In this document: positions 47,063-64,000 of the stretch, piece by piece
Layout of the letters: each line of letters begins with the position of its first letter
Numbering within the stretch: the first letter of the stretch is position 1
DNA from: Saprospiraceae bacterium
Lineage (GTDB): Bacteria; Bacteroidota; Bacteroidia; Chitinophagales; Saprospiraceae
Reading direction: 5' to 3'
NCBI GenBank assembly: GCA_022841345.1
Contig: JALHRR010000001.1
Location: 1 to 64,000, forward strand
DNA: 64,000 bases
Translations under genes and position numbers: made by a program
The notes under the pieces: generated by a model
The model's input: the letters and a program-made list of their open reading frames with translations, nothing else
What the model was told of the DNA's origin: nothing
The model's database searches: none

Positions 47063-47258
47063 GCAGCCGCTTCTAGCTTCTAGCCCCTGGCCTCTGGCTG
47101 GAACAGCCCTAACAGCCATTAGCCACTGTAAAGCAACACTTGAGTCATAAACTCTCTACCAACTCACACAGGCTGTTAGCTAGATGCCAGATGCGAGTAG
47201 CCTTCGTCAAGATTATTTATCAAAACGTATCACAGTCGATACAATAAATTACCAAAAG
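47063..47258 (+). other. Short repeat gap before the first DUF4143 ATPase
   Basis: CTAGCTTCTAGCCCCTGGCC-type sequence, AACAGCC marks and one GGCTGTTAGCTAGATGCCAG, then AT-rich DNA. The frame open from 47184 is not used as coding because it consists of this sequence. Confidence 0.5.
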
Positions 47259-47276
47259 TGTATCTTTGAAGATACA
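47259..47276 (+). promoter_or_regulatory. 18-base palindrome over -7 box, abutting the start codon
   Basis: TGTATCTT (47259-47266), TG, AAGATACA (47269-47276) is a perfect inverted repeat. It contains TATCTTTG (47261-47268), a TAnnTTTG box, and ends exactly before ATG 47277. It could be an operator, with a very short or absent leader. Confidence 0.5.
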
Positions 47277-48473
47277 ATGGATGCACTGATTCAAAAATAT
47301 AGAGGCCTATTACGTCAAAGTCACAAACCATTTGTGAGGCAACTCGCTACTCAGATCAACTGGAACGCAAGAGCAATCTGCATTGAAGGAGCGAGAGGGA
47401 CGGGCAAATCAACCCTTATGATCCAGCAAATCAGAAATCATCTTTCACATGATCAATCTTTATATTTGTCATTGGATGATTTGTACTTCAGACAGTATAC
47501 TCTAAGTGAGGTAGCTGAAGAATTCATAGGATTGGGAGGAAAATATCTTTTCATTGATGAAGTTCATAAGTATAAAAACTGGCAAATTGAAGTAAAGAAC
47601 CTCTATGATTTTCATTCCGAACTAATGATGACCATATCAGGCTCTTCAATACTTGCTTTGCAGGCATCAGAAGCTGATCTGAGCAGAAGGATGTTAAGGT
47701 ATCAATTACCTGAACTTTCGTTCAGAGAATTCATTGCTTTAAAAGAAAATGTCTCTTTAGCCTCATATGCACTTAATGATATTTTAAATAATCATTCAGA
47801 AATAGTAGATGAAATATTATCTATTGTCCCATTCCCATTAAACGCCATCAGAGAATATCATGCCTTCGGTGCATATCCATTCTTTTTGGAAGGTTCTGAA
47901 GATTATCCGATGAGATTGAATCAACTAATCAATGTTATTATTGATTATGATCTACCGGAATCAAAAGCAATTGAAACAAGCACTCTGGCTAAATTAAAAT
48001 TGCTTCTGTATATTATTTCCACTTGTGTTCCATTCATGCCAAATATTAGCAAGTTGGCCAATCAGGTAGGTACATCCAGAATTAGGTTGTTAGAAATGCT
48101 TCATTTACTTGAAAAAGCGCAACTAATCCACAACCTTCGCTCCGCTGCTCATGGCATAAGCCTTATGAATAAACCGGAAAAAATATTCTTACACAATACA
48201 AATCTTATTACTTGCCTTGCGAATGGCAAACCTGATTCCGGAAATATAAGAGAAACCTTTTTTCTGTCTCAACTAAGCAACGCCGGTCATCAGGTCTTAC
48301 ATCCAAAATCAGGGGATTTTATTGTAGATGATCAATATGTTTTTGAGGTTGGCGGAAAAAACAAAAAATCAGTCCAAATAAAAGGTATTACCAATTCATA
48401 CGTCGTCGCAGATGATATCATCCATGGTGCTGGTAACAAAATACCTCTTTGGCTTTTTGGATTTCTTTATTAA
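47277..48473 (+). CDS. AAA ATPase with DUF4143-like C-terminal domain, copy A
   Basis: 398 aa from ATG 47277. The Walker A motif is GARGTGKSTLM (about residue 40-50), Walker B is YLFIDEVHKYKNW (about 105), and sensor-like TISGSSILAL follows. The C-terminal half has the winged-helix (NISKLANQVGTSRIRLLEML) and nuclease-like region (YVFEVGGKNKK) of DUF4143 ATPases. The role of this common family is unknown. It is unrelated to polysaccharide synthesis and probably an accessory insertion; a second, different member is at 54304. Confidence 0.88.
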   Translation: MDALIQKYRGLLRQSHKPFVRQLATQINWNARAICIEGARGTGKSTLMIQQIRNHLSHDQSLYLSLDDLYFRQYTLSEVAEEFIGLGGKYLFIDEVHKYKNWQIEVKNLYDFHSELMMTISGSSILALQASEADLSRRMLRYQLPELSFREFIALKENVSLASYALNDILNNHSEIVDEILSIVPFPLNAIREYHAFGAYPFFLEGSEDYPMRLNQLINVIIDYDLPESKAIETSTLAKLKLLLYIISTCVPFMPNISKLANQVGTSRIRLLEMLHLLEKAQLIHNLRSAAHGISLMNKPEKIFLHNTNLITCLANGKPDSGNIRETFFLSQLSNAGHQVLHPKSGDFIVDDQYVFEVGGKNKKSVQIKGITNSYVVADDIIHGAGNKIPLWLFGFLY

Positions 48474-51699: not shown

Positions 51700-54087
51700 T
51701 TGAAAAAGTCAACAGACTTCGACAACAATCTCCAACAGGAAGATAACCCCATCGACCTCAGGAAATTGTTCTGGAAAATGCTCAGGTACTGGTACCTGTT
51801 CATACTCTTTCCGGCTATCACACTCACAGGTGCTTATCTATATTTAAGGTACACCCCACCTACCTACCAGGCGAAGCTCAAGCTACTCATCAAGGATGAA
51901 AAATCCTCCGGTCAGGTATCAGAGGCCAATGTTTTGAAGGAGATGGGATTCACTGCCAGTAGCCGGAATATAGAGAATGAAGTACTGATTCTGCAATCCT
52001 CCAAGCTGATGGAAGAAGTTGTCAAAGACCTCAATCTGCAATATCGTTACTGGCAAAAGGGCCGTATCCGCAACAGCGATTTATATCAATTTTCTCCTGT
52101 AGAAGTTGTGTCCTGGGTACCCGACTCTACATTCAAGGGAACGGTAACTTTACAAATTGAAGAATTAGATAATAATAACTATAATCTCAGTATTGGTGAC
52201 ACTCTGAAAAAAGGAGAATTTGGTAAAGTACTTGTCATCCCCGGTGGCAAAGTAACCCTCTCCCAGACCTTTGAAGGACAAGCCCTGAACGGAAAAGAAA
52301 ATCCACTATTCATTGACATCAAAGATCCTCTCCAGCTGGCCAGACAATTGGCAGGACGGGTGCAGGCAGCAAAAATTGGCAAAAATTCTACCATGCTGGA
52401 TATCGCCATCGAAGATGGCGTGCCACAGCGGGCATCGGATATTTTGCGTGAATTGATTGATGTGTACAATGAAAAGGAGATTGAAGATAAAAACCGCATC
52501 TACGAAAACACCCTGCGCTTTATAGATGAGCGATTGAACCTGCTGACCGATGAATTGCAAACAGTAGAATCTGAAGTGCGAAATATCATGACCCGCAGTG
52601 GTCTGATAGATATGAGCACTCAGGGAAGCCTTCTGCTGACGGAACTCTCCCAATACAACAGGGAATACATTGACATTGAGGTTCAACGGGAAATCCTGGA
52701 ATCCATCGAAACATTTTTGAAAGCAAATCCCAATTCCTTCGAATTTGTTCCGACAAATATGTCTTTGACCAATCTCACTTTAACTGCCCTGCTTGGAAGA
52801 TTCAATGATTTGTTGATTGAGAGAGAACGTATTCAAAGTACCTTAGGCCCTAACCATCCCAATATTGCCATACTTGAAAAGCAATTATCTAATTTGAGAA
52901 GCAATATACTGGACAATGTAGCGGCGCTTAAAAAGGACATTCAGGTAGGTCGCAATGCGGTCAGTAACAGCCGAAATAATATACAGGCACGCATCAGCAG
53001 TCTTCCGAGAAAGGAACAGGAAATGCTGGAAGTCAAACGTCAGCAGGGCATCAAGGAAAATCTATACCTCTATTTATTGGAAAAAAGGGAGGAAGCTGCT
53101 CTGTCTCTCGCAGCGGCAGTCGCCGGTTCAAGAGTGATCGAAGCCGCATATAATCCTGCTGCACCGGTGAAGCCCAAGCGCCAGATTATTTGGCTGATTG
53201 CATTGAGCTTAGGTATAATCCTGCCATTGGGATTAGTGTATCTGATAGATATGCTCAATGATAAACTGGACAATGAAGAGGATATCAAAACCATCACAGC
53301 TACTCCTATAGCTGGTGTAGTGGCATACAACAAGAAATATGGCGAAATAGCCATCAAGGAAAAGAGCCGTTCTGCAGTTGCTGAAATGTTCCGATTGCTC
53401 AGAACCAATCTGCAGTTTGTAGCTTCCGGACAGCTCAATCAGGTATTTCTCGTGACTTCCAGCAGCTCGGGAGAAGGAAAAAGCTTTGTCACGCTCAATC
53501 TGGGAATCACTATGTCACTTACCGGCAAAAAAGTACTCCTGATAGAGCTTGACTTACGTAAACCCAAACTGGTGAAATATCTGGGCGAAGGTGCCAAAAA
53601 CAAAGGAAAAGGACTTACACACTATCTCGTAGATTCTGAATTGACTCCTGAAGATATCATTCATCCTTCCGGCATTCAGGATAATCTGTATTATATTGCC
53701 TCCGGTCCCATCCCACCGAATCCGGGTGAACTCATCATGTCCGAACGCATGGAATCCCTAATAATCAAGCTCCGCGAGCAATTTGATTATATACTCATTG
53801 ATTCCTCTCCGGTAGGTCTTGTAGCGGATGCCCTCCTCATGCACAAGTGGGTGGACACCTCATTATATGTAGTACGTCAGGGACTTACCAAGCAGGGACA
53901 ACTCCGTATCATCGACGATATCTTCACCCAGGGCAAACTTCCGCGTCCATACATCATCCTTAATGCTGTCAAGCTCAATAAACGTGGCTCTTATGGTTAT
54001 GGATACGGATATGGTTACGGCTACGGATATGGCTATGGATATTACGAAGAAGATGAGAAGAAGCCCTGGTGGAAGTTTGGGAAGTAA
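51700..54087 (+). CDS. Wzc-type polysaccharide co-polymerase and BY-kinase with YG-repeat tail
   Basis: 795 aa from a TTG start (MKKSTDFDNN). It has a Wzz domain with a membrane helix (about 27-48), coiled-coil and GNVR-type region (about 260-480), a second membrane helix (about 490-510) and a BY-kinase domain with Walker A SSSSGEGKSFVTLN (about 587-600), Walker A' LIELDLRKPK and Walker B YILIDSSPVG. The C-terminal tyrosine cluster is an unusually regular string of YG units (about 766-781) followed by YYEEDEKKPWWKFGK. Autophosphorylation of these tyrosines, reversed by the 48601 phosphatase, would control polymer length and export. A diverged copy of this tail lies at 59821-59904. Confidence 0.95.
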   Translation: MKKSTDFDNNLQQEDNPIDLRKLFWKMLRYWYLFILFPAITLTGAYLYLRYTPPTYQAKLKLLIKDEKSSGQVSEANVLKEMGFTASSRNIENEVLILQSSKLMEEVVKDLNLQYRYWQKGRIRNSDLYQFSPVEVVSWVPDSTFKGTVTLQIEELDNNNYNLSIGDTLKKGEFGKVLVIPGGKVTLSQTFEGQALNGKENPLFIDIKDPLQLARQLAGRVQAAKIGKNSTMLDIAIEDGVPQRASDILRELIDVYNEKEIEDKNRIYENTLRFIDERLNLLTDELQTVESEVRNIMTRSGLIDMSTQGSLLLTELSQYNREYIDIEVQREILESIETFLKANPNSFEFVPTNMSLTNLTLTALLGRFNDLLIERERIQSTLGPNHPNIAILEKQLSNLRSNILDNVAALKKDIQVGRNAVSNSRNNIQARISSLPRKEQEMLEVKRQQGIKENLYLYLLEKREEAALSLAAAVAGSRVIEAAYNPAAPVKPKRQIIWLIALSLGIILPLGLVYLIDMLNDKLDNEEDIKTITATPIAGVVAYNKKYGEIAIKEKSRSAVAEMFRLLRTNLQFVASGQLNQVFLVTSSSSGEGKSFVTLNLGITMSLTGKKVLLIELDLRKPKLVKYLGEGAKNKGKGLTHYLVDSELTPEDIIHPSGIQDNLYYIASGPIPPNPGELIMSERMESLIIKLREQFDYILIDSSPVGLVADALLMHKWVDTSLYVVRQGLTKQGQLRIIDDIFTQGKLPRPYIILNAVKLNKRGSYGYGYGYGYGYGYGYGYYEEDEKKPWWKFGK

Positions 54088-54254
54088 TACAATCGCTAAG
54101 TCGCTAAAATGCAAAATCGCTAAGCTGCTAACTCCCTAAGCTACCAGACACCCGGCTGTTCATTTAGCAAATCCAAATATATTGCCACTTTTTCGGATTG
54201 TATTCCAAATATATCGCCACTTTTTCGGATTTCATTCCAAAATTATCGCGTATT
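54088..54254 (+). repeat. Low-complexity tract and 31-base tandem repeats
   Basis: CGCTAAGTCGCTAAAATGC-type sequence and one GGCTGTT, then two and a half copies of a unit of about 31 bases (54171-54201, 54202-54233, 54234-54254) with the core CCAAATATATCGCCACTTTT and TTCGGATT. They lie immediately before the ATPase promoter and could be regulator-binding sites. Confidence 0.65.
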
Positions 54255-54303: not shown

Positions 54304-55425
54304 ATGATAGCAAGGATTCTGGAAAATATAATAGAAGGCAAATTAAATAAAGGAAAAGCAATTCTCATTATGGGTGCCAGGCAGGTAGGCAAGTCAACGC
54401 TGTTACGAATGATGTTTGCCAATAGAGAAAAGGTACTTTGGTTAAATGGGGATGAATTAGATATTCAGCAATTGTTTTCATCGGCTTCAGGTAGCCGCTT
54501 AAAATCTATTTTCGGTAACAACAAGATTGTAATCATTGATGAAGCTCAACGAATCCAAAATATTGGCCTTCGTCTCAAATTAATTATAGATTCCATACCT
54601 GAGATACAACTTATCGTTACAGGCAGTTCCTCATTTGACCTGGCAAATCAAGTCAACGAACCACTAACAGGTAGAAAATGGGAGTACAGAATGTTTCCCT
54701 TATCATTTCAGGAGATGGTAGACCACCATGGACTCCTGGAAGAAAAAAGATTGCTTCCACATCGCTTAGTCTATGGATATTACCCGGAGATTGTCAGTTT
54801 TAAGGGAGAAGAAATTGAGAGATTGAAGCTTCTCTCCGACAGTTACTTATATAAAGACATTTTCCTCTGGGAGCGGATTCAAAAACCGGATAAACTGATT
54901 AGCCTTTTACAAGCATTGGCATATCAGACAGGCAACCAGATTTCCTTCAATGAATTGGGCAATTTATGTAGTTTGGACTCTAAGACTGTGGAAAAATATA
55001 TCATTCTGCTGGAACAGGCTTATGTAATCTTCCGGGTTGGATCATTCAGCAAGAACCTTAGAAACGAATTAAAAAACAGTAAGAAGATATATTTTTTTGA
55101 CAATGGAATCAGAAATTCATTGATCAACAGCTTTAATGAGCTTGAAAAAAGGCAGGATATCGGCTCGCTATGGGAAAATTTCCTGATGTCAGAAAGAGCA
55201 AAATTTCTTCACTACAGACAAATTTCAGCCATGCAGAAGTTCTGGCGAACAAAGGATCAAAACGAAATAGACTACGTGGAAACTGATGGGAGCAATTTAA
55301 GTGCATATGAGTTCAAATGGAATCCGGCAGCTAAAGTAAGAACTCCTCATACTTTTTTAAATGCTTACCCACATTCCTCATATACCGTCATCCATCGGGA
55401 GAATTTTGAAGATTTTTTGACTTAA
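54304..55425 (+). CDS. AAA ATPase with DUF4143 domain, copy B
   Basis: 373 aa. Walker A is MGARQVGKSTLLRM (about 21-34), Walker B is IVIIDEAQRIQNIG (about 77-90), sensor I is LIVTGSSSFDL, and the arginine-finger-like LTGRKWEYRMFPLSF follows. The C-terminal DUF4143 region (about 180-340) has NELGNLCSLDSKTVEKYIILLEQ and the nuclease-like NEIDYVE...YEFKW motif. It is a complete family member, distinct from copy A at 47277. It begins the insertion-like block between wzc and wzx. Confidence 0.93.
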   Translation: MIARILENIIEGKLNKGKAILIMGARQVGKSTLLRMMFANREKVLWLNGDELDIQQLFSSASGSRLKSIFGNNKIVIIDEAQRIQNIGLRLKLIIDSIPEIQLIVTGSSSFDLANQVNEPLTGRKWEYRMFPLSFQEMVDHHGLLEEKRLLPHRLVYGYYPEIVSFKGEEIERLKLLSDSYLYKDIFLWERIQKPDKLISLLQALAYQTGNQISFNELGNLCSLDSKTVEKYIILLEQAYVIFRVGSFSKNLRNELKNSKKIYFFDNGIRNSLINSFNELEKRQDIGSLWENFLMSERAKFLHYRQISAMQKFWRTKDQNEIDYVETDGSNLSAYEFKWNPAAKVRTPHTFLNAYPHSSYTVIHRENFEDFLT

Positions 55426-55639
55426 AGTCAGATGTAAAAGCTGCAAAATTGCTAATTCACTAACAGCCAAAATGTTAATTCGCCAATCTGCATATTAGCG
55501 GCTGTTCATTCTGCCGGCTGTTTCTTCAGCGCATTAGCAAATCAGCAAATTAGCGCATTGGCGCATTAGCAAATCAGCGGCTGTTCAAAGCAAATCAGCA
55601 CATTAGCGAATCAAATCAACGAATTTGCATTCAAAAGGC
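55426..55639 (+). repeat. GCTAATTCGC/AGCAAATCAGC mosaic
   Basis: GGCTGTT marks (about 55500, 55516, 55579) between AGCAAATCAGCAAATTAGCG tracts. The tracts run to about 15 bases before the S23 gene. Confidence 0.6.
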
Positions 55640-55999
55640 ATGAAAGAATTCTACTTTGAAAAATTGGATGTTTGGCAGACTGCAAGGGAATTTGTGAAAG
55701 ACCTTTATCTGGTTACCCATAAATTTCCTACTGAAGAGAAATATGGTATTGTGTCCCAAATCAGGAGATCTGCGCTTAGTATTTCAGCCAATATTGCAGA
55801 GGGAATGACCAGAAAATCGGACAAGGACAAAGCAAGATTTATCAACATAGCTTTCAGCTCTGCAATCGAAACAATCAATTTTTTGATCATCTCAAACGAT
55901 CTGGGAATTCTAACTAATGATCAATATAACACCTTAAGAGATAAAGTAGAAAAAATCACCAACCAGCTCAATAGCCTCTACATTACACTGAAACAATGA
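55640..55999 (+). CDS. S23 / four-helix-bundle protein
   Basis: 119 aa from ATG 55640 (MKEFYFEKLDVWQTA); the TTG at 55625 is less likely. The family signature is LDVWQTAREFVKDLYLVTHKFP, IRRSALSISANIAEGM and the amphipathic helices that follow. It is related to proteins encoded in 23S rRNA intervening sequences but often found alone, including in surface-polysaccharide loci. Molecular role unknown; nucleic acid binding is often suspected. Confidence 0.92.
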   Translation: MKEFYFEKLDVWQTAREFVKDLYLVTHKFPTEEKYGIVSQIRRSALSISANIAEGMTRKSDKDKARFINIAFSSAIETINFLIISNDLGILTNDQYNTLRDKVEKITNQLNSLYITLKQ

Positions 56000-56276: not shown

Positions 56277-59200
56277 ATGGCCATAAGTTTTGGTAAAACA
56301 TGGTGGGGAGGACAATGGCTCAATTCCCTGAACAATATAGACTATAGCAACAGGCTTCCAAGAGGAAGCAGCTATGCGCGCAAAGGCGCCGTGACTACCA
56401 TTAAAATCACGGAAAACAGGATCAATGCCAAAGTATCCGGTAGCCGACCCAGACCCTACTCGGTGGACATTATTCTTCCTCCGTTTTTTGAGCCGGAACT
56501 CACCAAGTTCATAGAGGAGCTCGTCAAACGGCCCGTAATCATATCAAAATTGCTCAACAGGGAACTGGACCCGGAGGTGCTGAGTATCGCCGAGAATATG
56601 CAGCTCAAAGTGTTCCCGCGGCAGTGGACAGATTTTAAAATGCAGTGCTCCTGTCCGGATTGGGCGGTACCCTGTAAACACCTGGCCGCTGTCATTTATA
56701 AGGTGAGCGCTGAAATTGACAACAATCCGTTTCTGGTGTTCAAGCTGCACAATGTGGATCTCATAGAAGAGATGAACAAGCGGGGTATCATAGTGAGGAA
56801 AAATGAATCAGAGATTCCGGCCATTTCGGATCTTTACTTTGAAAAAGGTGCATCCAAAAAGAAAGAAACTTTTGATTCTGAAAAAGCATATCAGAAGCTC
56901 TCTTTTGCCGGACTGCAGCCGATCTATGACCCGCTGATCGCATTACTCTCTGCGCATCCTCCGTTTTATCAGGGACATGGTGATTTCAAGGAAAAGTACA
57001 GAGACTCTATAGATAGTGTAGCCCGGAAAGCACAAAAAATCATCAAAGGAAAACTTAGCCTCGAACAAATATTGAAGTATGCTGAAATAGATCAGCAAAT
57101 AACCGTGCGTTCAGACAACAAGATCTCTATTGATGAGGACTATAAAGCCCGTGTGCTGTTGAATGATAAAGATTTTTCTTTTACGCGGTTTTTGACGCAG
57201 ATAGCCGCTATCCCGGGTAACAAAACTCCGGATTATCAGCCTTCGACTGCATCACTGCATACCGTCTTCAGTTTTGCACTTCATCTGCTGGCAAATGGCG
57301 CAGTCGTGCCTCAAATTGTCAGAAATACACAAAAGAAATATGCCGTCAGATGGCTTCCTGCATTGCTGAGTAAAGAGGTCAATGATCTGTGCAACAAATT
57401 GCAGGATATTCTGCCTCCCGGAATTTTTCTGTGGCAGGAAAAGGAAAAATTCAAAGCGATCAACAGGAATCCCGCATCCAATCTCTTGTCCGTTTTCCTC
57501 ACAGAGTTGATATCTGTACTGATGGAAAAAAATACCGGGGATATTTTCATGGACCTGTTCTTCAGAAAACATGACTACGATTTCAAACAACCGGGAGAGG
57601 ACTCACTGAGTGGAGGAATTGCAGCCTGGCTGCAAAAATACTACATCGCTCAGGGCATTTACAAGCCGCAGATCGTAGTAGAGGAAACAAAGACTGAGCA
57701 TTTTCTTATCAATATCAATGTCTTTGAAAAAGGAAAATCTATGGAAGCTCCTGTGGCTCTGAGTGATATACTGACAAAGCCCGAATACATAGCGCAACGA
57801 TATGATATTCTACAGTCATTGACTCAGCTTAGCAGTTTTATTCCTGGTCTTGATAAGTATATAAACTCCAATACAGCTCAGCGGATGGAAATGGATATAC
57901 AAACTTTCACTCCCTTTCTGATGCAGATGATTCCGGCCATCCAACTGCTGGATATAGATATTCTTCTGCCCAAATCATTGCGCGAAATACTCAAGCCCAA
58001 ACAAAGTCTCAAGATCAAAAAGAATCAGGGCAAGTCCTTCCTGCGCCTGGACAAATTGCTGGACTTTGAATGGCAAATAGCTATTGGTGACACACTGATG
58101 AGCGAGGCAGACTTCAGGCAAATGCTGAAAAACTCCGAGGGTCTCTTTAAATATAAGACCCAATATATCTATGTAAGCAAAGAAGAACTTGAAAAAATAC
58201 ACCGCCATTTTAACACTAAAGATGGTCTCTCTTCTTTTCAATTATTGCGCTCTGCACTAAGCGGTGAATACTTTGGTGCTAAGGTAAATCTCACAGATGA
58301 AGTCAGGGATTTGATAAAAGAACTGACCGAAGTAAAGGACATACCTCTTCCGGCCGGTATCCATGCGACTCTGCGCCCCTATCAGCAACGCGGCTATGCG
58401 TGGATGTACCGTAATGCCCGGATCGGATTTGGCTCGGTCATCGCAGATGATATGGGATTGGGAAAAACCCTGCAGGTCATTGCTACACTGCTGAAATATA
58501 AGGAAGACGGAATGCTGTCGGATAAAAAAGCACTCGTTATAGCTCCTACAGGTCTGTTGACCAACTGGGCAAGCGAAATAGAAAAATTTGCCCCTTCTCT
58601 GAAAATCCATATTTTTCATGGCACACACCGTAAAATAGAATCGGAGTTTGATATACTCCTGACCTCCTATGGTGTTGCAAGGTCGGAAGCATTGAGATTG
58701 AAAAAAATACCCTGGCATACCATGGTGATCGACGAAGCTCAGAATATCAAAAATATTGATACCAAACAAACGAAGGCCATCAAAACCATAGAAGCTGACA
58801 ATTTCATCGCCATGAGTGGCACTCCCGTTGAAAACCGCCTAAGTGAGATGTGGAGCATCATGGACTACAGCAATCGCGGCCTGCTGGGAACTCCTAAAGA
58901 ATTTCAGGATACTTTTGCCTCGCAGATCGAATCCTACAATGACCACGAAACTGCTGAAAAGCTGAAAAAAGTAACAGGCCCCTTCATGATGCGAAGGTTA
59001 AAATCTGACAAAAGCATTATTTCAGATCTGCCCGATAAGCTGGAAATGGACTGTTTTTCTACACTGGCAAAAGAACAGGCTACGCTCTACGAAAAAACAC
59101 TGGAAGAAGCCCTGAGGGAAATAGATGGAATAGATCCTGCTGACAGACAAAGTCTCTTTGTAAGACAGGGTCTCGTATTGCAAATGATTCTGGCATTGAA

Positions 59201-59780
59201 ACAAATCTGCAATCACCCGGCTCAATTCTTAAAAAACAAAATACTGGACCCTTCTCTGAGCGGAAAAATCTCCCTTTTGTTTGATAAGCTCGACAGTATT
59301 GTAGAGAGTAGTGAGAAAGTACTTGTATTTACCCAATTTGCAGAGATGGGAAAGATACTGCAGCAACTTGTCAGCGAAAGATATGGCGAACCCGCGCTGT
59401 TTTATCACGGCGGATGCAGTATCAAACAGAGAAAGGAAATGGTGGATGCTTTTCAGGGTAATCATGTAGACAAAATTTTCATATTATCTCTGAAAGCTGC
59501 CGGAACGGGATTGAATCTCACTCGCGCCAATCACGTCATTCATTATGATCTTTGGTGGAATCCCGCCGTCGAAGCGCAAGCCACCGACCGGGCATACCGT
59601 ATCGGACAAAAAAACAATGTCATGGTACATCGCTTCATCACCAAAAACACCTTCGAAGAGCGCATTAATGAAATGATCCAGTCCAAAAAAGCCCTCGCCG
59701 AAATGACAGTAGCCACCGGCGAAAACTGGATAGGCAACCTCAGCAATAAGGAGCTGAAGGATTTGTTTGTGATGAAGTAG
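56277..59780 (+). CDS. SWIM zinc-finger SNF2-family helicase
   Basis: This is a 1167-aa DNA translocase. The N-terminal FGKTWWGGQWLNSL and SWIM finger Cys124-x-Cys126...Cys133-x-His135 (CSCPDWAVPCKH) define the SWIM-SNF2 subgroup. A long bacterial SNF2-associated region is followed by the helicase core: motif I DDMGLGKTLQ (about 724-733), motif II DEAQNIKN (about 819), SGTPVENRL, and C-terminal motifs FTQFAEMG, SLKAAGTGLNLT and QATDRAYRIGQ. Activity looks intact. Possible roles are transcription/repair or defence. It lies in the block between wzc and wzx with no defence partner visible. Confidence 0.95.
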   Translation: MAISFGKTWWGGQWLNSLNNIDYSNRLPRGSSYARKGAVTTIKITENRINAKVSGSRPRPYSVDIILPPFFEPELTKFIEELVKRPVIISKLLNRELDPEVLSIAENMQLKVFPRQWTDFKMQCSCPDWAVPCKHLAAVIYKVSAEIDNNPFLVFKLHNVDLIEEMNKRGIIVRKNESEIPAISDLYFEKGASKKKETFDSEKAYQKLSFAGLQPIYDPLIALLSAHPPFYQGHGDFKEKYRDSIDSVARKAQKIIKGKLSLEQILKYAEIDQQITVRSDNKISIDEDYKARVLLNDKDFSFTRFLTQIAAIPGNKTPDYQPSTASLHTVFSFALHLLANGAVVPQIVRNTQKKYAVRWLPALLSKEVNDLCNKLQDILPPGIFLWQEKEKFKAINRNPASNLLSVFLTELISVLMEKNTGDIFMDLFFRKHDYDFKQPGEDSLSGGIAAWLQKYYIAQGIYKPQIVVEETKTEHFLININVFEKGKSMEAPVALSDILTKPEYIAQRYDILQSLTQLSSFIPGLDKYINSNTAQRMEMDIQTFTPFLMQMIPAIQLLDIDILLPKSLREILKPKQSLKIKKNQGKSFLRLDKLLDFEWQIAIGDTLMSEADFRQMLKNSEGLFKYKTQYIYVSKEELEKIHRHFNTKDGLSSFQLLRSALSGEYFGAKVNLTDEVRDLIKELTEVKDIPLPAGIHATLRPYQQRGYAWMYRNARIGFGSVIADDMGLGKTLQVIATLLKYKEDGMLSDKKALVIAPTGLLTNWASEIEKFAPSLKIHIFHGTHRKIESEFDILLTSYGVARSEALRLKKIPWHTMVIDEAQNIKNIDTKQTKAIKTIEADNFIAMSGTPVENRLSEMWSIMDYSNRGLLGTPKEFQDTFASQIESYNDHETAEKLKKVTGPFMMRRLKSDKSIISDLPDKLEMDCFSTLAKEQATLYEKTLEEALREIDGIDPADRQSLFVRQGLVLQMILALKQICNHPAQFLKNKILDPSLSGKISLLFDKLDSIVESSEKVLVFTQFAEMGKILQQLVSERYGEPALFYHGGCSIKQRKEMVDAFQGNHVDKIFILSLKAAGTGLNLTRANHVIHYDLWWNPAVEAQATDRAYRIGQKNNVMVHRFITKNTFEERINEMIQSKKALAEMTVATGENWIGNLSNKELKDLFVMK

Positions 59781-59820
59781 GGGGGATACACTCTAGAAAT
59801 CTCATTTACACTTCTACCTT

Positions 59821-59904
59821 CGTTATGATCGGGGTTCATTTGGATACAGCTACGGATATTATGAAGAAGATGAAAAGAAGCCATGGTGGAAGTTCGGGAA
59901 GTAG
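59821..59904 (+). pseudogene. Remnant of a second wzc 3' end
   Basis: In frame it reads RGSFGYSYGYYEEDEKKP, then WWKFGK and a stop, matching the last residues of the Wzc protein at 51700. The DNA differs mainly at third codon positions (TAC/TAT, GAA/GAG, CCA/CCC, TTC/TTT, TAG/TAA) plus one GGC-to-AGC change. Upstream of RGS the match disappears. So this is the 3' scrap of a separate, diverged wzc, 64 bases before wzx. Confidence 0.8.
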
Positions 59905-59967
59905 GAATGTTCATTTCAATATTTAACCATTGTTACTTGAGTTGAAAATTAAGAATAAATACTCCGA

Positions 59968-61428
59968 GTGTTTGATTTAAAGTCCAAGACTTTATCTGGA
60001 TTATTGTGGAGCTTTATAGGTAGTTTTGCTAATCAGATTGTAACTTTTATAGTAGGGATCATACTGGCCAGGCTAGTCACTCCTTACGATTATGGTCTAA
60101 TTGGAATGGTTTCAGTGCTGATAGTAATTGCCCAAACTTTTGTTGATGGGGGATTCAAGCAAGCGCTGCTTCGAAAAAAAAATTGTACAGAAAATGAATA
60201 TTCAACAGTGTTCATTTTTAATATTGCCACTGCAATTTTTTTATATGTTTTAATTTTCTTTAGTGCTGGTTTAATTGCGAACTTTTTTGAAGAGCCTCAA
60301 CTAAACCTTCTTGTAAAAGTGATTGCATTGAATCTGATAATTAATTCATTTTCAGTTATTCAGACAACTATTTTTTCAAAAGAAGTTGATTTCAAAATAC
60401 AAGCAAAAATTACTTTTGTTGCAGCATTAATTTCTGGAGTATTTGGAGTAGTGCTTGCTTACGAGGGGTATGGGGTTTGGAGTTTGGTTTATCGCGCAAT
60501 ATTAGCTTCAATTATAATGTCTGGGTTATTCTGGTTTTTCAGCACATGGAGACCAAAACTCATTTTTAGTTTAAGCTCTTTCAAAGAACTTTTTGGATTT
60601 GGCAGTAAACTACTTCTGAGCAGTCTGATTGATCAAGTTTATTGGAATATTTATTATGTGGTAATCGGGAAATATTTTTCCGTTCAAACTTTAGGATTTT
60701 ACACTCGTGCTGAAATGTTTAAGAATCTTCCATCGCAAAATTTAACTTCAATCATTAGTAATGTTAGTCTTCCTGTTTTAGCTCAATTACAGGATAAGCC
60801 TATAGAATTTAAAAATGCATTTAAAAGAATTTTGAGGCTGACAATGTATTTAACTTTTCTTTCTTTGGGGGGAATGATTGTACTTTCAGAGACTTTAATT
60901 TATGTCCTTATAGGACCAAAATGGGCTGAATCCATTGGATATTTACAATTGCTTTGCATTGCAGCTTTGTTTTTTCCGCCAAGTCTCTTAAATATCAATA
61001 TTATTAAAATCAAAGGAAGAGGTGATTTAATACTGAAGTTGGAAGTAATAAAAAAGTCATTGGCAATAGTATCAATAATTATTGGTGTTTTTCATGGGAT
61101 ATATGTTATGTTGTATATAATAATATTCAATTCAATGTTGGATTGTTTATTAAATAGTGCAATTGGCGGAAATCTTATGGGGTATAAATTGAAAGATCAA
61201 ATTTTCGATGTCATTCCGACTTTTTTTAATGCACTCGTTGCGGGTGTATTAGTATATCTTCTTTCAATTCCTTTTGATTCAAATTCAGTCTTGAATTTAA
61301 TTTTTTTAAGTCTGACTGGGCTTGTAGTATCAATTTTGATAGGTGAAATCTTTAGAGAGTCGACTTATATGTATATTAAAAACTTGCTATTAAGCAAGGT
61401 TAATTTTAGCCACAAACATAGAAGATAG
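59968..61428 (+). CDS. Polysaccharide repeat-unit flippase (Wzx/MOP superfamily)
   Basis: 486 aa from GTG 59968 (MFDLKSKTLSGLLWSFIGSF). It has about 12-14 membrane helices and the family N-terminus LARLVTPYDYGLIGMVSVLI, with FGSKLLLSSLIDQVYWNIYY in the middle. It would flip lipid-linked oligosaccharide units across the inner membrane before Wzc/Wza export. Base composition drops to strongly AT-rich from here to about 62.4 kb, usual for variable surface-sugar cassettes. It starts the compact distal operon. Confidence 0.92.
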   Translation: MFDLKSKTLSGLLWSFIGSFANQIVTFIVGIILARLVTPYDYGLIGMVSVLIVIAQTFVDGGFKQALLRKKNCTENEYSTVFIFNIATAIFLYVLIFFSAGLIANFFEEPQLNLLVKVIALNLIINSFSVIQTTIFSKEVDFKIQAKITFVAALISGVFGVVLAYEGYGVWSLVYRAILASIIMSGLFWFFSTWRPKLIFSLSSFKELFGFGSKLLLSSLIDQVYWNIYYVVIGKYFSVQTLGFYTRAEMFKNLPSQNLTSIISNVSLPVLAQLQDKPIEFKNAFKRILRLTMYLTFLSLGGMIVLSETLIYVLIGPKWAESIGYLQLLCIAALFFPPSLLNINIIKIKGRGDLILKLEVIKKSLAIVSIIIGVFHGIYVMLYIIIFNSMLDCLLNSAIGGNLMGYKLKDQIFDVIPTFFNALVAGVLVYLLSIPFDSNSVLNLIFLSLTGLVVSILIGEIFRESTYMYIKNLLLSKVNFSHKHRR

Positions 61429-61462: not shown

Positions 61463-62443
61463 ATGATTAAGTCGCTGGTTTCAGTGGTTGTTACAGCTTA
61501 CAACCAAGAGAAGTATATAGAGCAAACTCTGGAAAGTATTCTTGAACAAAACACAAATTTCGAATTTGAAATATTAATAGGAGAAGACTGTTCATTGGAC
61601 AGAACTAAATCCATTCTCCAAGAATATGAAGCAAGATTCCCTTCTAAAATTAAGGTGATTTATAATTCTAAGAATCTTGGAATTGTTGGAAACTGGACCA
61701 GTACGATAAATCATTGCAATTCAAAGTATGTAGCTTTATGCGAAGGGGATGACTATTGGACTGATAGAAATAAGTTACAAAAGCAAATAGACTTTCTCGA
61801 GAATAATAATGAGTTTGGAATGGTGTGTTCCAATTATAGTAAATATTTTGAAGGTGAAGGAACTAGAAAATTTGATTGTTTTAAAATTGAAAACTATAAG
61901 GAGGAGGTCAAACTACAAGATTATATCCATGACAGAGGTACAATAATGAGTGCGACTGTTGTCTTTTATAAAAGCTTATTTGACCAATACCAAAAAGAAA
62001 TTCCAGAATTAACGAGAATTAATTGGAAAATGCCTGATTCTCCTCTCTGGCTATTTATGGGTATCAAGTCAAGGATAGGTGTAATTCCTGACTCAACTGC
62101 AGAATACAGAATCCATAAAGTTTCTGGATCTAAAATGGGGAATAATGAGTTACAATTTCTTTTCGTAGAAAAAGGGTATGAGATTCCTTTATACTTTGCC
62201 GATAAATACAACTTGGGCATTCTTACTCGCCATCAGATATTAAGAAATAGGCAAAATTTTGTTTTTGAATATGCATTCTTTAAAGGCGACAAGGAATTAT
62301 ATATAAAGCTAAAACACAAATACTACTACAAGGAAGGGATAAAAAATAATAGAGTTTTGCTCTTCGACTTTGGTTTTTTAAATAAATGGACTCATAAGTG
62401 GGTTGTAAAACTCTTTGAATTTAAAAGAAGCACTAATCTTTAG
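61463..62443 (+). CDS. Family 2 glycosyltransferase
   Basis: This 326-aa cytoplasmic, GT-A fold enzyme has VSVVVTAYNQEKYIEQTLES at the N-terminus, IGEDCSLDRTK (nucleotide binding), NLGIVGNWTSTINHC and the metal/acceptor motif CEGDDYWTD (about 94-102). It is 34 bases after wzx and 5 bases before the dehydratase, AT-rich like wzx. Donor and acceptor are unknown; it probably adds one sugar of the repeat unit. Confidence 0.92.
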   Translation: MIKSLVSVVVTAYNQEKYIEQTLESILEQNTNFEFEILIGEDCSLDRTKSILQEYEARFPSKIKVIYNSKNLGIVGNWTSTINHCNSKYVALCEGDDYWTDRNKLQKQIDFLENNNEFGMVCSNYSKYFEGEGTRKFDCFKIENYKEEVKLQDYIHDRGTIMSATVVFYKSLFDQYQKEIPELTRINWKMPDSPLWLFMGIKSRIGVIPDSTAEYRIHKVSGSKMGNNELQFLFVEKGYEIPLYFADKYNLGILTRHQILRNRQNFVFEYAFFKGDKELYIKLKHKYYYKEGIKNNRVLLFDFGFLNKWTHKWVVKLFEFKRSTNL

Positions 62444-62448
62444 TTAAT

Positions 62449-63480
62449 ATGAATACTGAATTATTAAAAGGTAAAACCATTCTTATCACTGGTGGAACCG
62501 GATCATTTGGCAATGCTGTACTGAAAAAATTTCTAAATACAGGGATCCGAGAAATCCGTGTTTTTAGCAGAGATGAAAAGAAACAGGACGATATGAGGGT
62601 TTTTTATAAAAATGATAAAATCAAATATTACATAGGTGATGTCAGGGATCCATTGAGTGTGCTCCATGCGTCTAATGGTGTAGATTTTATTTTTCATGCG
62701 GCAGCTTTGAAGCAAGTGCCTTCATGTGAATTTTATCCGATGGAGGCAATCAAAACCAATGTTTTGGGTGCTGAAAACGTGCTGGATGCAGCATTAAGAA
62801 ATGGGGTAAAGAAAGTTATTGTATTGAGTACCGACAAAGCAGTGTATCCCATTAATGCGATGGGTCAAACAAAAGCATTGATGGAGAAATTAATGGTAGC
62901 AAAATCAAGGTTATTATCAAATACCGGTCAGGTTTTTTGCGCAACTAGATATGGAAACGTAATGGCTTCAAGAGGCTCAGTAATTCCATTGTTTATCAAA
63001 CAGATCAAGGAAGGAAAACCAATCACCATCACTGATCCTGAGATGACAAGGTTTATGATGTCTTTGGATGAATCTGTTACATTAGTTGAATTTGCATTTC
63101 AAAATGCCATGCCGGGAGATATTTTTGTTCAAAAAGCTCCGGCTGCTACTATTCACAATATTGCACTCGCACTCAAAGAGATTTTTAAATCCGACACAGA
63201 TATTCAAATTATAGGTACGCGTCACGGAGAGAAGCTTTACGAAACGCTTTGTACAAGAGAAGAGATGGCCGTTGCTAAAGAATATGATAACTTTTACTGT
63301 ATTCCAGCCGATAACAGAGACCTGAACTATGCAAAATACTTTGAAGAAGGGGATACCCAAAAATCTGAATTTGTAGATTATCATTCACACAATACTCAAA
63401 GATTGTCTCTGAAGGAGACAATTTCTTTATTAAGTAGCTTGGAATATGTTAATAAAGAATTGATTAATAGCCAATTGTAA
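62449..63480 (+). CDS. UDP-GlcNAc 4,6-dehydratase/5-epimerase, CapE/WbjB-like
   Basis: 343-aa SDR of the FlaA1/CapE group. The Rossmann motif is TGGTGSFGNAV, and AALKQVPSCEFYPMEAIKTN and LSTDKAVYPINAMGQTKALMEK follow. The usual Tyr of YxxxK is replaced by Met (AMGQTK), as is known for CapE-type enzymes, so this is not a defect. RYGNVMASRGSVIPLFI is also typical. It starts deoxy-HexNAc synthesis (for example toward L-FucNAc), and the 2-epimerase follows 4 bases later. CapF is not in the window. Confidence 0.9.
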   Translation: MNTELLKGKTILITGGTGSFGNAVLKKFLNTGIREIRVFSRDEKKQDDMRVFYKNDKIKYYIGDVRDPLSVLHASNGVDFIFHAAALKQVPSCEFYPMEAIKTNVLGAENVLDAALRNGVKKVIVLSTDKAVYPINAMGQTKALMEKLMVAKSRLLSNTGQVFCATRYGNVMASRGSVIPLFIKQIKEGKPITITDPEMTRFMMSLDESVTLVEFAFQNAMPGDIFVQKAPAATIHNIALALKEIFKSDTDIQIIGTRHGEKLYETLCTREEMAVAKEYDNFYCIPADNRDLNYAKYFEEGDTQKSEFVDYHSHNTQRLSLKETISLLSSLEYVNKELINSQL

Positions 63481-63484
63481 TTAA

Positions 63485-64000
63485 ATGAAAATTCTCACTA
63501 TAGTAGGAACAAGACCTGAACTCATTAAATTGTCGCGAGTCCTGAGTGTGTTGGAGTTATATTCTGAACATATTTTAGTCCATACAGGACAAAATTTTGA
63601 TTACGAATTAAATCAGGTATTTTTTGATCAGCTGATGATTAAAAAACCTGATTACTTTCTTAAAGCAGCTGGGAAAAATGCAGCCGAGTCTATTGCTAAC
63701 ATCATATCAAAATCTGATGAGGTTTTGGAAAAGGAACAACCGGATGCAGTTCTCATATATGGAGACACTAATAGTTGTCTTTCTGCTCTTTCTGCTAAGC
63801 GTCGTAAAATACCTGTCTTTCACATGGAAGCAGGAAATCGCTGTTTTGACTTAAGAGTTCCTGAGGAAATTAACCGCAAAATTATTGATCATCTCAGTGA
63901 TATCAATATGGTGATTTCTGAACAGGCAAGACATCATTTGATGCAAGAAGGTATCCGCCCCGAGACAATAGTTAAAACAGGTTCATCAATGAAGGAAGTC
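63485..64000 (+). CDS. Non-hydrolysing UDP-GlcNAc 2-epimerase, WecB/CapG-like (partial, runs off the end)
   Basis: 172 codons are present, without a stop. It begins MKILTIVGTRPELIKLSRV, with HTGQNFDYELNQVFFDQL, VLIYGDTNSCLSAL and HMEAGNRCFDLRVPEEINRK, all family signatures. Directly after a CapE-like gene, the CapG role (last C2 epimerisation in UDP-L-FucNAc synthesis) is more likely than WecB, but the rest of the operon is outside the window. Confidence 0.92.
   Translation, partial: MKILTIVGTRPELIKLSRVLSVLELYSEHILVHTGQNFDYELNQVFFDQLMIKKPDYFLKAAGKNAAESIANIISKSDEVLEKEQPDAVLIYGDTNSCLSALSAKRRKIPVFHMEAGNRCFDLRVPEEINRKIIDHLSDINMVISEQARHHLMQEGIRPETIVKTGSSMKEV

Follow-up and report, generated by a model that had tools for sequence, protein, structure and literature searches.

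Some genomic islands use the 3′ end of a gene as their insertion site, displacing the old end. In Salmonella, the galactose-initiated O-antigen clusters contain gene remnants and sharp junctions, and the flanking sequence is reported to stay with its own variable block (PMC3715488). For the capsule loci of Elizabethkingia, the portions of the published description considered here report conserved secretory genes and, in a highly variable adjoining region, the glycan-specific genes (PMC5458099). Here, in a 64,000-nucleotide stretch of a Saprospiraceae genome (the window), we found a 75-base element directly 5′ of the flippase gene wzx of a Wzx/Wzy polysaccharide locus, and we are confident that it is a relic of a diverged wzc lying at a recombination seam. 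Like the Salmonella O-antigen clusters (PMC3715488), this locus has a truncated gene remnant at or near the junction between blocks of different origin. Unlike in Salmonella, the remnant derives from the export kinase gene wzc, it lies in a Bacteroidota genome, and between it and the intact copy lie three unrelated genes; moreover, the present case rests on one genome instead of a strain series. The conserved wza/wzc arm beside a variable module is reminiscent of the arrangement in the considered portions of the Elizabethkingia report, but a displaced wzc tail was not found among the features described in them (PMC5458099). The scar is ordinary in kind, such scars being already known from other polysaccharide loci, and its place is new. 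The features of the locus are, in window coordinates:

51700-54087, + strand: intact and probably resident wzc, with Wzz, GNVR and tyrosine-kinase-type ATPase parts and a Tyr-rich tail; the reference for the relic comparison.
54304-55425, + strand: AAA_14/DUF4143 ATPase gene, which opens the block lying between wzc and the relic.
55640-55999, + strand: S23 protein gene of the block (23S rRNA intervening-sequence protein, four-helix bundle).
56277-59780, + strand: SNF2-type helicase gene of the block with a SWIM domain, complete to its C-terminus, GC3 of 0.49 like wzc.
59781-59829, no strand assigned: the seam, 49 bp from the SNF2 stop to the start of the wzc homology, unique in the genome (BLAST, codon alignment).
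59830-59904, + strand: wzc relic, 24 terminal codons plus stop from a diverged second allele of wzc, without a start codon (repeat, protein and codon comparison).
59968-61428, + strand: wzx flippase gene, the first of a compact low-GC3 module, GC3 of 0.26.
61463-64000, + strand: continuation of the low-GC3 module with a glycosyltransferase-like gene, a sugar epimerase/dehydratase and a UDP-GlcNAc 2-epimerase.

The counterpart of the relic is the 3′ end of wzc. A repeat finder paired 54025-54086 with 59842-59903 (62 nt, 89%), a protein search of the genome placed Wzc residues 774-795 at 59836-59901 (86%), and a BLAST search with 59781-59967 as query in all 5.87 Mb of the genome returned, besides the query itself, the end of wzc as the sole real match (E 3.2e-16). 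In a codon-by-codon alignment the homology starts at 59830 and ends with the stop at 59902-59904. The relic comprises 25 codons, RGSFGYSYGYYEEDEKKPWWKFGK*, and its partner in wzc (53983-54087) 35 codons, RGSYGYGYGYGYGYGYGYGYYEEDEKKPWWKFGK*, the Gly-Tyr repeat being ten codons shorter in the relic; the two tails are nowhere identical over more than 11 nt. A preliminary description of this DNA had stated that the last 25 or so residues of Wzc reappear in frame with a stop and with mostly third-position differences, and this we can confirm, with a shifted left border: the codons at 59821-59829 (RYD) have no homology to the wzc codons preceding RGS, so the relic begins at about 59830, nine bases inside the interval reported earlier.

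The relic and wzc differ at 13 of 75 bases, and 11 of these 13 differences fall on codon position 3 (P = 2e-4 under equal chances for the three positions). Eleven codon changes are synonymous, one of them being TAA/TAG, and only two residues are replaced (Y/F and G/S). Judged from this pattern, wzc and the relic diverged as constrained coding sequence and the truncation came late, because the relic contains neither a frameshift nor an early stop and at most two replacements. Coding-type divergence before the truncation points to another wzc allele as the source. A fresh duplication is ruled out by the 13 differing positions, nearly all of them third positions. The protein search revealed no second wzc of the same kind in this genome, the next Wzc matches being 23-29% identical. 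Allele, or xenologue, is thus a more apt term than the paralogue of the preliminary description, of which the once-functional and diverged nature of the relic does hold. An orthologous wzc is absent from the one congener, and a Wzc scan of the collected genome contigs gave distant matches only. As the wzc tails within the family are very unlike each other, we infer that the similar tail of the relic comes from the wzc of a close relative.

Is the present gene order the original one? We compared 31 wzc loci of relatives from the same family and order. In four of them (L093, L095, L096 and L152) a wzx homologous to the present one directly follows wzc, with a gap of -1 to 42 bp; elsewhere wzc is followed by other polysaccharide-locus genes, the next gene normally being co-directional and close by. 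An AAA_14, S23 or SNF2 gene is found among the three genes after wzc in 0 of the 31 loci, and no examined locus other than this one has the block between wzc and wzx. Full-length relatives of the SNF2 gene are present in seven genomes, in all cases away from wza and wzc. Based on the wzx adjacency in four loci, the absence of the block from all 31 and the location of the SNF2 relatives, we regard wzc-wzx as most likely ancestral and the present order, with three unrelated genes in between, as derived. The comparison with wzc-wzx junctions of relatives thus agrees with the ancestral junction that the preliminary description had suggested for this place. Displaced tails elsewhere were searched for by comparing the last 45 residues of the 31 wzc products with their own downstream DNA, which gave only weak or low-complexity matches.

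The base composition changes sharply across the seam. Using contig C1 and 29 sampled 20-kb stretches as genome baselines, we found that cpsB, wza, wzc and SNF2 have a GC3 of 0.48-0.49, which corresponds to the 97-99th percentile of 499 genes sampled from the genome. The low-GC3 module starts at 59.97 kb and extends past the window to 78.86 kb of the contig; its 17 ORFs from wzx onwards have a GC3 of 0.24-0.34 (0-22nd percentile for the ORFs of sufficient length to be ranked). At 79.16-80.78 kb, the genes of the ATP-grasp protein and the initiating sugar transferase return to 0.43-0.46 (90th-94th percentile). There is no GC3 shift within wzc. Modules of wzx and glycosyltransferase genes are typically low in GC, recently arrived or not. 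In the module beyond the window, an asparagine-synthase-type gene is divided over two ORFs covering consecutive portions of PF00733 (L108:12118-13997; contig C1 70118-71997) and is therefore probably broken, and a complete homologue lies at 75813-77693.

The spacers change at the same place. Those of the left arm are long (cpsB-wza 696 bp, wza-wzc 870 bp), whereas most relatives have a few tens of bases, and they are made up of GGCTGTT separators and 7-8 bp tandem words. Such word spacers, in which GGCTGTT alternates with stretches of degenerate words (among them ACTCATA, GCTCGAA, ACTTATT, AACCAGC and, in the block, AGCAAATC), form strand-biased clusters throughout the genome, e.g. at 28-56 kb of the window, at 84-97 kb of contig C1 and on other contigs (L126, L136, L144 and L150). 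The density of GGCTGTT is 4.0 per 10 kb in the sampled contigs, compared with a median of 0.6 for permuted 7-mers and 1.3 in the loci of relatives. This style is present in the left arm and in all three spacers of the block, and resumes at 84 kb. Word spacers are absent from the wzx module, in which the gene junctions measure -118 to 41 bp; compact operons elsewhere in the genome likewise lack them. At E 1e-5 the block spacers did not match other sampled contigs despite the same GGCTGTT separator, and the block spacer word AGCAAATC was not seen elsewhere in the sampled DNA. Taken together, GC3, gene spacing and spacer style all switch at the relic, which marks the border of the conserved arm and the variable module. 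A self-comparison of 26-110 kb revealed no second relic at the right edge of the module.

How could a second wzc tail have come to lie behind the SNF2 gene? Directly visible are the repeat, the coding-type nature of its divergence, the lack of a start codon, the adjacency of wzc and wzx in relatives and the change of composition at the seam; the direction of the exchange is what we infer from them. On balance, we favour the view that the 75-nt element is the displaced 3′ end of the wzc of a related strain, left as a recombination scar when the neighbouring module was swapped in. The resident locus would have consisted of wzc, followed by the AAA_14, S23 and SNF2 genes and then by a variable module. 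This module would then have been lost in exchange for DNA from a related strain whose wzc was immediately followed by wzx. The left end of the donor DNA would have broken about 24 codons before its wzc stop and been joined behind SNF2 without homology, presumably by end-joining, and recombination at its right end may have taken place at about 79 kb or farther on. The kinase is still encoded by the intact wzc. The left arm and the block carry the spacer style of the genome and GC3 breaks at the relic, so the simplest reading is a long-resident left arm and an exchanged low-GC3 module. Hence it is probably the wzx/wzy module, and not the block with wzc, that is the newcomer. Against this weigh the low GC of such modules in general, the compact operons of the genome that lack word spacers as well, and the block word AGCAAATC, so that the direction is read from indirect signs.

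The same final structure, with exactly the observed gene order, would also result from the reverse course of events, which the preliminary description had suggested. In that case a native wzc′-wzx locus would have received the present wzc together with the AAA_14, S23 and SNF2 genes, which replaced the native wzc except for its last 24 codons; in a variant, a single crossover of block-carrying DNA in the 3′ end of wzc would have generated a hybrid wzc and displaced the native tail. The occurrence of wzc-wzx adjacency in relatives is compatible with this course, and the left-arm genes are themselves GC3 outliers for the genome. However, the spacers of the left arm and the block are in the genome's own style, SNF2 shares its GC3 with wzc, wza and cpsB, the low-GC3 module begins beyond the relic and GC3 is high again past it, as if the module lay inserted between two resident arms, and GC3 shows no shift within wzc. 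We therefore regard an arrival of the block with the present wzc as rather unlikely and not as the best reading.

A mistaken joining of contigs from two co-occurring strains at about 59.8 kb would likewise let the composition break coincide with a foreign wzc tail, and the genome is a fragmented draft, possibly metagenome-derived, with 310 contigs and 4.94% contamination. Yet the two tails share at most 11 nt exactly and 59781-59967 matches nothing else in the genome; as there is no repeat at the joint, nothing was present through which an assembler would join, which makes such an artefact improbable. The geometry of an intact gene on one side of a block and a displaced, diverged 3′ end on the other is shared with the islands mentioned above, and an element integrating site-specifically into the 3′ end of wzc could have restored the gene while displacing its old end. 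Unlike such islands, the block encodes no recombinase or integrase (AAA_14/DUF4143, S23 and SNF2 only), and its ends show no exact att-like direct repeat longer than 11 nt; an integrative origin is largely refuted and, in our view, very improbable. Finally, the in-frame stop and the conserved residues might suggest a small gene for a Wzc-tail-like peptide. Upstream, the frame stays open as far as a TAG at 59794, but ATG, GTG and TTG are all missing from it, so the relic is not a gene. Short tails conserved as a small gene in relatives, which the preliminary description had named as the finding that would speak against it, were looked for: no comparable copy was found in about 400 genomes of the family, in about 400 of the order or downstream of the 31 wzc genes. 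Within the genomes searched the small-gene reading is refuted, with hardly any probability left to it, and the missing start codon together with the missing copies identifies the element as a relic: it is a dead scar that is not translated on its own.

With the module exchange as the preferred reading, the seam shows, to the base, where the conserved export arm meets the variable sugar module in a Bacteroidota-type polysaccharide locus. It suggests that when a module moves, the final codons of the adjacent kinase gene can go with it. The relic is a useful marker for reconstructing the history of the locus, the process itself being well known in other bacteria. One could go further and imagine the Tyr-rich 3′ end of wzc as a recurrent joining point for the exchange of polysaccharide modules in this lineage, the kinase tail moving along with the module it serves, so that tail and glycan types co-segregate, a speculation to which we give little credence.

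Further observations concern the spacers and the block. Heptamer direct repeats (TAACTGA) are known in some Bacteroidetes and other bacteria (PMC4679880); for the mixed arrangement of GGCTGTT and varied 7-8 bp words we found no description in the literature. AAA_14/DUF4143-type ATPase genes and the S23 gene lie inside word-filled spacers (window 47184-48473 and 54304-55999; contig C1 84693-86060, L109:6693-8060), with a GC3 below that of their neighbours, as if these spacers collected genes of the two types. Just upstream of the AAA_14 ATPase gene of the block, a 32-bp sequence ending in CCACTTTTTCGGATT is present in two tandem copies (54172-54235), has no exact third copy in the genome and is possibly an operator.
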